A program made the position numbers and the translations under genes. DNA of 64,000 nt from NCBI GenBank assembly GCA_027491315.1, contig JAIXWL010000004.1, positions 1-64,000 of the forward strand. The letters are read 5' to 3'. How positions within the stretch are numbered: position 1 is the stretch's first letter; every line of letters starts with the position of its first letter. This stretch comes from Cytophagaceae bacterium. Its GTDB lineage: Bacteria; Bacteroidota; Bacteroidia; Cytophagales; Spirosomataceae. Of this stretch, positions 41,784-44,517 are shown in pieces. Below the pieces are notes generated by a model. It worked only from the letters and a program-made list of their open reading frames with translations. It searched no databases and was not told where the DNA came from.

Positions 41784-41820
41784 GCTCCAGACCTCGCAAG
41801 AAGTCTGGAGCTTATCTTTT
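41784..41820. terminator. Terminator between convergent M1 peptidase and tyrA
   Basis: A 9-bp stem GCTCCAGAC (41784-41792) and GTCTGGAGC (41803-41811) with a 10-nt loop, followed on the plus strand by TTATCTTTT. The T run is interrupted, so it may be of medium strength. Confidence 0.75.
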
Positions 41821-42682
41821 ATTTGCGGTTAAGAATTCGCCCAATGTCATTGGCTTTCGCTAATTCCTCTTTGAGTTTTTCATAACTACCTGATAACATC
41901 AATCCTTTGTATTTCAATAGCGTATTAATGTATTCATCCAGGACATCCATTAAGTTTTCTTGGTTTTGATGAAATATCTGAATCCAGGTTTCTGGGGATG
42001 ATTTAGCCAAACGAACCGTAGATTCAAATCCAGTGGATGCTAACTCAAATATTCGTTTTTCATCTTTTTCTTTCTCTAAAACCGTATTGGCTAAGGCAAA
42101 AGAACAAATATGCGATATATGTGAAATATAGGCTGTATGGACATCATGGCTGATGGAATCCATATAAATCAAATTCATATGTAAGCCATCTTGGTATAAA
42201 CTTTCGATGGTTTTTTCGGCATCAGGATCACTTAATTCCTGGTCGCAAATGACGCAACGTTTGCCTTCAAATAGTCCATCGATTGCGGCCTCTGGTCCAG
42301 AAAATTCAGTACCTGCCATGGGGTGAGTTGAGACAAATTGTTTTCTTCTTGGGTGGTTTTTTAAGGCTTCATAAATAGGACTTTTGGTCGATCCCACTTC
42401 AATCACAATCTGTTTTTCATTGAATTGGTCCAAAATTTTGGGTAATTGTTCAACCAAATTATCTACGGGAGTAGCTATAATCAGCACGTCTATGACTTGT
42501 AAGGCTTGATCCAATGGGAGCAAGCGATCTATAAGGCCTAGTTCCAAGGCTCTTTTTTGGTTTGGACGATTGGTATCAATGCCAATGCACTCTTTTGCCC
42601 AGCCAGTTTTACGTAAACCCAGGGCCATGGAACCACCAATTAAACCGATCCCTAAAATTCCTACAACTTTATTTGATTCCAT
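41819..42682 (-). CDS. tyrA: Prephenate dehydrogenase
   Basis: TyrA converts prephenate to 4-hydroxyphenylpyruvate for tyrosine synthesis. The 287-residue protein has the NAD(P)-binding GILGIGLIGGS (8-18), IIATPVDN, and the prephenate-site motif STHPMAGTEFSGP (about 117-129). The C-terminal helical half has SHISHICSFALANTV. No ACT or chorismate mutase domain is fused. It overlaps the upstream aminotransferase gene by 14 nt and is controlled by the same tyrosine-rich leader. Confidence 0.93.
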   Translation of the reverse strand: MESNKVVGILGIGLIGGSMALGLRKTGWAKECIGIDTNRPNQKRALELGLIDRLLPLDQALQVIDVLIIATPVDNLVEQLPKILDQFNEKQIVIEVGSTKSPIYEALKNHPRRKQFVSTHPMAGTEFSGPEAAIDGLFEGKRCVICDQELSDPDAEKTIESLYQDGLHMNLIYMDSISHDVHTAYISHISHICSFALANTVLEKEKDEKRIFELASTGFESTVRLAKSSPETWIQIFHQNQENLMDVLDEYINTLLKYKGLMLSGSYEKLKEELAKANDIGRILNRK

Positions 42683-43847
42683 TTGAATGTGTTTTTATGC
42701 GGTGAATGGCTGATTCAAAAAGGGAAATGGGGGCACATAGAGATACGCGAATATAGCCATTCCCTTGGCTTCCAAATATGCCACCTGGAGTGATGAACAC
42801 GGCATTTTCTTCTAATATTTTATCTGAAAGCTCATATCCGCTTCCGTAGGTATTGGGGATTTTCGCCCAAACGAACATACCGCTTTGTTTTGGATCATAG
42901 GAGCAATTTAATAAGTCCATTAATTGAAATACCACTTGCTGACGCTCAGAATAAATTTTGTTCTGTTGTTTGAACCAATGGGCATCTGCTTTTAAAGCTT
43001 CTACGGCTGCCTCTTGCAAAGGTAAAAACATGCCTGAATCCATGTTGGATTTAAAAGTCAAAATGGGTACTAAAAAACTCTGTTTTCCCAATACGGCTCC
43101 AATTCTCCAGCCCGCCATATTATGTGATTTAGACAAAGAGTTTAATTCAATAGCTACTTCCTTCATACCGGGAATGCTCAACATGCTGATAGGTTGATCA
43201 TTTAAAATGAAGCTGTAGGGGTTGTCATTGACCAATAAGATAGCGTGCTTCAAGGCAAAATCACGTAATTTTTCAAAAAATGCCCAATCGGCTTTAGCAC
43301 CAGTAGGCATGTGGGGGTAATTCACCCACATGATTTTAACTTTGGATAGGTCTCGTTTTGCTAATTCATCTAAGTCGGGTAGCCAACCATTTGCCTCAGA
43401 TAGTTCATAGCTTTGTACCTCTGCACCAGTGAGCGCACAGGCCGCTTGGTAGGTGGGATATCCAGGGTTGGGAATTAAGGTGACATCTCCTTTTTCCAAA
43501 TAGGCCATAGCTATGTGCATGATTCCTTCTTTGGAACCCATCAGGGGTAAGATTTCTGTATTGGGGTCAATATCTACTTGATATTGAGTTTTATAAAATT
43601 GGGAAAAGGCTTCACGGAGTGCGGGAATTCCTTGATATCCTTGATAGGCATGGTTTTCTTTTTTCTGGGCGCTAGCTATCAGCGCCTCTATAGTCGCATC
43701 AGAAGGAGCTAAGTCCGGACTACCTATTCCCAAGTTCAGCACTGGGATACCTGAGGCTTTTAAGGCTGCAATCTGTTTTAGCTTGGTAGAAAAGTAGTAT
43801 TCTTGCACTACTTGTAATCTTGAAGCTGGAGAAATGGTGAAGCTCAT
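42669..43847 (-). CDS. Class I/II aminotransferase, probably aromatic
   Basis: A 392-residue PLP enzyme of the aspartate aminotransferase fold. Seen: NLGIGSPDLAPS near the N-terminus, NYPHMPTGAKA (where most family members have NPNNPTG), NDNPYSF, the PLP lysine in SLSKSHNMAGWRIG, and the carboxylate-binding Arg in GYIRVSLCAP. The sequence alone resembles LL-diaminopimelate or aromatic aminotransferases. Its operon with tyrA and the tyrosine-codon leader upstream argue for 4-hydroxyphenylpyruvate to tyrosine (and phenylalanine) amination. The first codon lies only five bases after the T run of the attenuator. Confidence 0.85.
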   Translation of the reverse strand: MSFTISPASRLQVVQEYYFSTKLKQIAALKASGIPVLNLGIGSPDLAPSDATIEALIASAQKKENHAYQGYQGIPALREAFSQFYKTQYQVDIDPNTEILPLMGSKEGIMHIAMAYLEKGDVTLIPNPGYPTYQAACALTGAEVQSYELSEANGWLPDLDELAKRDLSKVKIMWVNYPHMPTGAKADWAFFEKLRDFALKHAILLVNDNPYSFILNDQPISMLSIPGMKEVAIELNSLSKSHNMAGWRIGAVLGKQSFLVPILTFKSNMDSGMFLPLQEAAVEALKADAHWFKQQNKIYSERQQVVFQLMDLLNCSYDPKQSGMFVWAKIPNTYGSGYELSDKILEENAVFITPGGIFGSQGNGYIRVSLCAPISLFESAIHRIKTHSNGIK

Positions 43848-43852
43848 AAAAC

Positions 43853-43874
43853 AAAAAAACCGACTTCTGGCCGG
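43853..43874 (-). terminator. Attenuator terminator of the aminotransferase-tyrA operon
   Basis: On the transcribed strand CCGGC (43874-43870), loop CAGAA, GTCGG (43864-43860) form a five-pair stem with one G-U pair, which outer A-T/G-T pairs can lengthen, followed by seven T (43859-43853). It lies after the leader peptide stop and directly before the aminotransferase start, where a terminator makes sense only as a regulated one. Confidence 0.8.
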
Positions 43875-43913
43875 CTCATAATAAGTTTAAAATTAATCAA
43901 TACCTACAATAGC

Positions 43914-43979
43914 CTATTGGCAAGATGTGAATCCTGCGTAATAATAAGCGTAATAATAGGTAGTGGATTGTTTAATCAT
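43914..43979 (-). CDS. Tyrosine-rich leader peptide
   Basis: A 21-codon frame begins MIKQSTT, continues YYYAYYYAGF and ends in TSCQ before TAG. Six of 21 codons are Tyr (8-10 and 12-14), with one Phe at 17. Such runs of the end-product amino acid just before an intrinsic terminator and a biosynthetic operon are the mark of ribosome-mediated attenuation. When charged Tyr-tRNA is scarce the ribosome should stall at the Tyr runs and let transcription into the aminotransferase and tyrA. The ATG lies 4 nt after a consensus -7 box, so the message is probably leaderless. I did not find a long, unambiguous antiterminator; the short GGCT just after the Tyr region could pair with AGCC at the foot of the terminator. 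Confidence 0.85.
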   Translation of the reverse strand: MIKQSTTYYYAYYYAGFTSCQ

Positions 43980-43983
43980 GTTC

Positions 43984-44014
43984 CAAAGGTATAAAAAAAA
44001 TGTTTTTATGCAAA
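43984..44014 (-). promoter_or_regulatory. Consensus Bacteroidota promoter of the tyrosine leader
   Basis: On the minus strand TTTG (44014-44011), exactly 19 nt, TACCTTTG (43991-43984): a full match to TTTG-N19-TAnnTTTG. The leader ATG (43979) follows the -7 box by 4 nt, so transcription should begin at or within a base or two of the start codon. Confidence 0.8.
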
Positions 44015-44067: not shown

Positions 44068-44517
44068 TTAAGAAAGTCGTTGAATGTACATGGAAATTAA
44101 ATCAGGCTCAAATCCTTTTCTCAGGGCATATTGGTAGCACTTTTGTTTTCTTGCCCAATCATTGGAATCTTTTAGCTGTTTAAATTTTTCGACTATCATG
44201 GATTCCAGAGTGGAATCATAGGGAAGTTCGTGTAATTCCCCTAAGGCAGCTTGTACCAAAGCATCTGAAACTTGAAGTCTTTTTAACTCAAATTTTATTT
44301 TATTTCTACCCCAAGATTTTTGATTGAATTTTGACCGAACAAATAAGCGAGCAAAGCGCTCTTGATGTAGGTAATTATTGTCTTCTAACCAATCTAGGTA
44401 GGCTTGTTGATCCTCCGGTAAAATAGAAAATGAGTCCAATTTCACTTTGATTTCCCAAACACAGCGTTCTTGGTAGGCGCAGTAGCGAGCCAATTTCTGT
44501 AAAACCTCCGATTTCAT
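44068..44517 (-). CDS. recX: Regulatory protein RecX
   Basis: RecX binds RecA filaments and limits recombination activity. The 149-residue helical protein shows the family pattern: LARYCAYQERCVWEIKVKL near the N-terminus, YLDWLEDNNYLHQERFARLFVRSKFNQKSWGRNKI in the middle, and CYQYALRKGFEPDLI at the end. It lies 6 bp after hemA on the same strand. recA is not in the window. Confidence 0.9.
   Translation of the reverse strand: MKSEVLQKLARYCAYQERCVWEIKVKLDSFSILPEDQQAYLDWLEDNNYLHQERFARLFVRSKFNQKSWGRNKIKFELKRLQVSDALVQAALGELHELPYDSTLESMIVEKFKQLKDSNDWARKQKCYQYALRKGFEPDLISMYIQRLS

Follow-up and report, generated by a model that had tools for sequence, protein, structure and literature searches.

The aminotransferase-tyrA operon on the minus strand of the window, the whole 64,000-nucleotide stretch analyzed here, is very probably preceded by a ribosome-mediated transcription attenuator. 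We further consider it highly likely that this attenuator responds to tyrosine and that its leader peptide is encoded by a leaderless message. A sequence-only reading of the locus had proposed tyrosine-responsive attenuation of this kind, and comparison with relatives lends the proposal support. By sequence identity, the organism belongs to the genus Aquirufa, because the corresponding locus of a same-genus genome (L012, genome G090) is identical over 4173 nt to that of A. antheringensis 30S-ANTBAC (L038). The window's own genome (G000) comprises 2.92 Mb.

The leader region and its conservation

All elements described in the sequence-only reading were located: a promoter, an ATG 4 nt after it, 21 codons including six for Tyr, a stop codon, a terminator with T7, and a 5-nt gap before the aminotransferase gene. 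The features are as follows.

44014..43984, minus strand: Bacteroidota-type promoter, TTTG-N19-TACCTTTG, read directly from the sequence
Between the promoter box and the leader ATG, minus strand: GAAC, read directly from the sequence
43979, minus strand: predicted transcription start (+1) on the A of the leader ATG, placed by its 4-nt spacing from the -7 box
43979..43914, minus strand: leader frame MIKQSTTYYYAYYYAGFTSCQ, 21 codons, six of them Tyr, plus TAG (43916..43914)
43943..43961, minus strand: arm 1, leader codons pairing with arm 2 in ribosome-free RNA (folding, P = 0.99)
43902..43916, minus strand: arm 2, antiterminator 5' arm (GGCT + TAGGT), overlapping the leader stop codon
43873..43886, minus strand: arm 3, antiterminator 3' arm (ACTTA + AGCC), overlapping the terminator 5' arm
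43875..43853, minus strand: intrinsic terminator, hairpin plus T7, from sequence and folding
Between T7 and the aminotransferase ATG at 43847, minus strand: GTTTT (5 nt)
42669..43847, minus strand: class I/II aminotransferase, PF00155 (Aminotran_1_2)
41819..42682, minus strand: tyrA, prephenate dehydrogenase, NF006307 above cut-off; PF02153, PF20463

A short frame, read in the sequence and predicted to be translated, is thus rich in codons for Tyr, the presumed end product of the operon behind it, with an intrinsic terminator separating it from the aminotransferase gene. The overlap of that gene with tyrA, also claimed earlier, amounts to 14 nt, and the two products fall into the Aminotran_1_2 and prephenate dehydrogenase families. 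The aminotransferase is probably a tyrosine/aromatic aminotransferase. Its top NCBIfam match is LL-diaminopimelate aminotransferase, yet the score lies under the curated cut-off, as for all 25 models listed; a database annotation of the window gene (42669-43847) as LL-diaminopimelate aminotransferase may be wrong. The upstream neighbors of the leader are recX and hemA, and recX ends at 44068 on the minus strand, like the leader. The leader RNA (43980-43848) folds with a z score of -3.63, a stability equaled by none of 200 shuffles. The window holds a single YYY.YYY frame, a pattern absent from all 100 of its dinucleotide-shuffled versions. Rfam covariance models for the T-box and other families gave zero matches at the leader.

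The family set consisted of 121 genomes, including the window's own. An aminotransferase match at E <= 1e-80 was obtained in 93, which split into 35 genomes at 62 to 100% identity and 58 at 47 to 52%; Arcicella, Flectobacillus, Pseudarcicella, and Siphonobacter are among the relatives represented. With named loci added, the collection came to 52 leader-bearing loci and 37 distinct leader sequences (a Lentimicrobium locus, L100, was kept separate).

A Tyr-rich leader lies upstream of the aminotransferase gene in all 35 family genomes at >= 62% aminotransferase identity, with MIMHSTTYYYAYYYAGYPSCQ, MNSHAINYLTGYYYAGYYNAA, MNQSINTYRAYYYYALQA, and MATILYTASYYYYYANA as examples. The sequence-only reading had let its case depend on close relatives that keep the operon also keeping the Tyr run, and the run is retained in 35 of 35. 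Across the 37 distinct leaders, Tyr residues number 4 to 8 and Phe residues 0 to 2; 26 leaders are free of Phe, and one (L031) has a single Phe within the Tyr run. The 16 distinct leaders of 21 codons all have Tyr at codons 8, 12, 13, and 14, with TAT/TAC exchange at two of the four. Ala15 and Gly16 are likewise invariant, while the majority of the remaining codons vary; codon 10 encodes Arg in one close relative. No Tyr leader was found within about 2.5 kb in the 26 more distant members examined (of the 58 at 47 to 52% identity), and tyrA lies beside the aminotransferase gene in many of these 58.

In seven genomes of one genus (g36: G052, G065, G077, G088, G097, G105, and G113), mostly fragmented assemblies, the aminotransferase gene and tyrA are on separate contigs. 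The Tyr leader of these genomes is located at the aminotransferase gene. A Tyr leader with terminator before tyrA was seen in none of the six g36 genomes read, one of which (L212) has a single short frame with YY at that place. The leader thus seems to be tied to the aminotransferase gene. Elsewhere in the window's genus, we saw no persuasive leader for Trp, His, or Phe at the trpE, hisG, and pheA loci that were scanned (23 of the 26 retrieved, a few of them cut short at a contig edge); a Trp pattern search was uninformative because of its high background.

Antiterminator pairing and ribosome position

Arm 2, whose start coincides with the leader stop codon or follows it closely, can base-pair with the terminator 5' arm. 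The window pairs GGCT-attg-TAGGT with ACTTA-ttatg-AGCC, A. antheringensis pairs TCGGTTATATA with TATATCAGCCGA, and the Arcicella-like clade pairs AGTCGGgTGTGT with ACACAagCCGACT. No clear antiterminator had been noticed in the sequence-only reading, which fell back on a Rho-like or polarity route. One is in fact present, weak in the window and strong in most relatives, and because the stretch starting at the leader stop pairs with the terminator 5' arm, the fallback is unnecessary. Since it is complementary to the terminator 5' arm, the core of arm 2 resembles the terminator 3' arm. In this it is like the complementary triples reported by Seliverstov et al. for actinobacterial trp attenuators (PMC1262725).

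An antiterminator that would exclude the terminator stood clear of the shuffled controls in most sequences: in 28 of 37, at most 7 of 300 arm 2 shuffles matched the real arm 2-arm 3 pairing. Shuffles did as well more often in the nine others: 27 of 300 in the window, a borderline value, 17 to 26 in its five nearest relatives, 44 in L021, 11 in L029, and 25 in L051. At -9.4 kcal/mol, the window antiterminator is among the weakest of the set. The alignment of related genomes suggested earlier bore out conserved Tyr codons and failed to bring out covarying antiterminator stems: run on a MAFFT alignment of 30 of the 37 sequences, RNAalifold recovered the terminator only, in which a single base pair had both partners substituted, and arm 2 was out of register between clades in that alignment. 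In place of RNAalifold, each sequence was tested separately for duplex formation and for dependence on ribosome position, with shuffles as controls. When arms were swapped between clades, the own partner was not always preferred. Given the RNAalifold result and these swaps, we make no formal claim of covariation.

The ribosome was modeled by masking the RNA up to 12 nt beyond the first base of the A-site codon, and two versions of the RNA were folded, one cut before arm 4 and the other full length at equilibrium. On the cut RNA, dependence on ribosome position was clear. When the A site held the first Tyr codon of the longest run, the mean antiterminator probability was 0.94, exceeding 0.8 in 30 of 37 sequences; with the A site at the stop codon, it was 0.16, below 0.2 in 26 sequences and at or above 0.2 in 11. 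Shuffling the spacer, which holds arm 2, lowered the first-Tyr value from 0.945 to 0.286, and 5.4% of 740 shuffles reached the observed probability.

On the full RNA at equilibrium, the picture was mixed. The terminator probability in the window was 1.00 without a ribosome and 1.00 with the ribosome at the stop, fell to 0.07 to 0.65 at codons 7 to 14, reached 0.96 to 0.99 at codons 15 and 16, and was about 0.41 at codons 17 and 18, beyond the Tyr run. In the five nearest relatives of the window, it dropped just to 0.59 to 0.63 at Tyr codons. Of the 37 sequences, 18 had at least one Tyr codon at which it was under 0.5, and 12, made up of L050 and 11 of the 14 in the Arcicella-like clade, never went under 0.8 at these codons; at the stop codon it was at least 0.9 in 36. 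In sequences whose terminator is more stable than the antiterminator, mainly the Arcicella-like ones, the antiterminator would therefore need to form first, which would make the switch a kinetic one.

From these observations we infer the following mechanism. RNA polymerase would start at or beside the A of the leader ATG, and, as the promoter spacing suggests, a ribosome would load directly on the bare 5' AUG. With ample Tyr-tRNA, it would pass the Tyr codons and reach the stop, where it would cover arm 2, since arm 2 begins at the leader stop codon; the terminator would then form, and transcription would stop 5 nt short of the aminotransferase gene. With Tyr-tRNA scarce, the ribosome would stall in codons 8 to 14 and leave arm 2 exposed to pair with arm 3, so that no terminator would form and aminotransferase-tyrA would be transcribed. 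In the window species, untranslated leader RNA is predicted to terminate as well, because arm 1 traps arm 2; this trap is predicted to be lacking in most relatives.

The part played by arm 1 leaves room for a simpler scheme, a minimal two-hairpin switch without the protecting hairpin between arms 1 and 2 (1:2), in which an untranslated leader would mean on and a ribosome at the stop would mean off. We regard this scheme as possible, though less likely than not. It agrees with the cut RNA, on which the ribosome-free antiterminator probability is at least 0.5 in 28 of 37 sequences, and with the 1:2 hairpin itself, which exceeds a probability of 0.5 in just 15 of 37. The 1:2 probability lies between 0.06 and 0.15 in the five nearest relatives of the window, and RNAalifold gave no consensus for this hairpin over the 30 aligned sequences. 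The window, however, forms the 1:2 hairpin with a probability of 0.99, and once arm 4 is present, free RNA at equilibrium favors the terminator (>= 0.9) in 30 of 37 sequences.

Promoter spacing and the predicted leaderless start

A TAnnTTTG box lies 4 to 5 nt before the leader ATG in 30 of the 37 distinct leader sequences, the window included. Counted by genome, the gap is 4 nt in 19 and 5 nt in 8, that is, in 27 of the 35 family genomes. Probable promoters of Flavobacterium johnsoniae likewise have 4 or 5 nt from the -7 box to the start site (PMC6847099), and in F. psychrophilum the -7 box occupies -12 to -5 (PMC9723704). With the ATG exactly 4 to 5 nt after TAnnTTTG, the predicted start site therefore coincides with the A of the ATG or adjoins it, and the leader message is predicted to be leaderless. 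In the window, a box at matching distance precedes only 5 of 2520 ATGs on both strands. Long frames with TAnnTTTG 2 to 5 nt before a possible ATG, at about 2944 (minus), 24686 (minus), and 38071 (plus), are further leaderless candidates in the window.

The leaderless message proposed in the sequence-only reading, its start placed by the promoter, thus finds support in the box spacing of relatives (27/35). That reading had also called such a start unusual. The description fits Bacteroidota, where 5.5% of the mapped mRNAs of F. psychrophilum are leaderless (PMC9723704) and about 3.7% of 5' untranslated regions in Bacteroides thetaiotaomicron are shorter than 10 nt (PMC7366714); it fits less well elsewhere, as leaderless leader peptides have been reported in Streptomyces and for Sinorhizobium trpL.

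In a variant that we judge improbable, the attenuator is the same, but transcription would begin at an undetected site farther upstream and give the leader message a brief conventional 5' untranslated region. This version draws on the eight of 35 genomes (six Siphonobacter-like ones, G009, and G033) that lack a box 4 to 5 nt before the ATG and whose readable boxes lie 18 to 24 nt upstream of it, on distant leaders with a perfect box, which mostly have it 14 to 48 nt upstream, and on the scarcity of leaderless mRNAs in mapped Bacteroidota; in F. johnsoniae, for instance, 87% of leaders exceed 10 nt (PMC6847099). Against it, the exact gap of 4 or 5 nt is kept in 27 of 35 genomes, and similarity among same-genus sequences drops off on the upstream side of about -35: each 15-nt block from -30 to -1 matches the window at 14 to 15 of 15 positions, and the blocks from -90 to -31 match it at 2 to 9 of 15. 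Because of the readable boxes 18 to 24 nt upstream in the Siphonobacter-like, G009, and G033 group, leadered versions of the Tyr leader do seem to exist.

Two further readings would dispense with transcription attenuation. Translational control, in which the hairpin by the aminotransferase start would block ribosomes and leader stalling would open it, is suggested by the window T run ending 5 nt before the start codon, but the T7 run on the hairpin and the Arcicella-like hairpin, which precedes the start codon by tens of bases, make it very improbable. That the hairpin serves merely as the terminator for recX and hemA, with the Tyr frame there by chance, can be dismissed almost entirely, for although recX ends close upstream on the same strand, promoter and leader intervene between recX and the hairpin, five same-genus genomes with an unrelated flank upstream of the promoter still keep the block, the Tyr codons are conserved, and none of 100 shuffles yielded such a frame.

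Aromatic leaders across Bacteroidota and relation to known attenuators

A wider set of 63 named loci (L052 to L114), from Chitinophaga, Hymenobacter, Saprospiraceae, Algibacter, Bacteroidales, and others, was searched for leaders in which four or more of seven residues were Phe, Tyr, or Trp. This criterion fixes "aromatic" by construction, but not the co-occurrence of Phe and Tyr. pheA lies directly upstream of the aminotransferase gene in 54 of the 63 loci; of the nine loci without it, two (L094 and L101) end early at a contig end. The search returned an aromatic leader frame accompanied by a terminator at 51 loci, comprising 50 of the 54 with pheA and L100 without. Phe and Tyr are both present in 50 of 50 leader-bearing pheA loci, L112 being doubtful. 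The pheA-less Lentimicrobium locus (L100) has the leader MYYYAYYYLNGNKGSYVLL, whose arm pairing is not significant (P of about 0.3 and 0.5). By sequence, leader codons track gene content, being Phe plus Tyr with pheA and Tyr dominated without pheA before the aminotransferase gene, as the leaders are mixed at 50 of 50 leader-bearing pheA loci and Tyr dominated at the pheA-less ones.

Arm 2-arm 3 complementarity reached P <= 0.025 in 50 of 69 wider-set leaders, in 22 of 30 with at most 4 codons after the aromatic run and in 28 of 39 with more. The median start of arm 2 relative to the stop codon was +2 with the short tails and -16, inside the coding tail, with the longer ones; restricting arm 2 to sequence after the stop left 26 of 68 leaders significant. 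Tandem aromatic leaders before pheA, each with its own terminator, occur in 18 loci within L058 to L105. They are mainly from Chitinophaga, Hymenobacter, and Saprospiraceae (e.g., L064, 271 and 429; L072, 211 and 367). Two Phe/Tyr leaders outside the family (L081, 338; L096, 491) have a -7 box 5 and 7 nt before the ATG and may be leaderless or nearly so. Separately, a SAM riboswitch lies on the opposite strand near the aminotransferase gene in two loci of distant groups (L051, 262-376, minus; L100, 223-322, minus). Tentatively, and just short of an even call, we propose an ancient, phylum-wide aromatic attenuation in Bacteroidota whose codons were retuned to gene content and which in the lineage of Aquirufa, Arcicella, and Flectobacillus would have turned leaderless and grown independent of a protecting 1:2 hairpin, with the stop codon as the switch point.

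Ribosome-mediated attenuation is classical, and the trp and phe attenuators of Escherichia coli use alternative hairpins. In E. coli trpL-trp and pheL-pheA, a leader peptide with codons for the regulated amino acid precedes the cognate operon (PMC11802643). The Aquirufa leader resembles these in its alternative hairpins and in codons that match the cognate operon, and it differs in using Tyr rather than Phe or Trp, in its predicted leaderless start, in the position of arm 2 at the stop, and in a 1:2 hairpin that is not conserved. The attenuator RNA of Sinorhizobium meliloti trpL (rnTrpL) also begins at the ATG of the leader frame (PMC7298713), there with Trp codons and in Alphaproteobacteria. 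In Actinobacteria, leader peptides before amino-acid genes of Streptomyces lividans are transcribed leaderless (PMC8079986), and Cys-rich upstream open reading frames are known from mycobacteria, their regulatory roles still speculative according to the authors (PMC4633059); these leaders are likewise leaderless, which is only suggested in mycobacteria, and serve other amino acids. Corynebacterium glutamicum aroR, a Phe-Tyr-Phe leader peptide before a DAHP synthase operon, shares the aromatic character but is reported to react to a shortage of Phe and not to the supply of Tyr (PMC11802643), unlike what the Tyr runs of Aquirufa would predict.

Closer by phylum, "strong clues" of leader-peptide attenuation upstream of amino-acid operons have been noted in F. 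psychrophilum (PMC9723704), with no amino acid, sequence, or structure given in the passages compared; this and a remark on short frames in B. thetaiotaomicron (PMC7366714) are the nearest statements for Bacteroidota in the literature covered. Tyr T-boxes have been named as an RNA-level control of tyrosine genes (PMC1262725), and the Aquirufa leader, also a candidate for control at the RNA level, differs from them in having a leader peptide and no Rfam match. We found no Tyr-dominated attenuator, and no dissected attenuator in Bacteroidota, in the open-licence literature searched. As attenuation is classical and no such case was found there, we grade the Aquirufa switch as a new, Tyr-dominated and predicted-leaderless form of a known mechanism class.

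Tyrosine genes in other bacteria are known to be controlled by T-boxes, which are not known to involve a leader peptide, or by repressors, and Bacteroidota lack Shine-Dalgarno signals. If our reading is correct, a tyrosine attenuator read by the ribosome would operate in a phylum without Shine-Dalgarno signals and with few leaderless mRNAs, which would imply transcription-translation coupling in Bacteroidota close enough for attenuation. Natural versions that are predicted to be leaderless (Aquirufa) or seem to be leadered (Siphonobacter) would be available for comparison. The arrangement also suggests a role in making tyrosine for an aminotransferase that scores best as LL-diaminopimelate aminotransferase, and from the wider pattern, aromatic attenuators would be expected ahead of pheA in many Bacteroidota.
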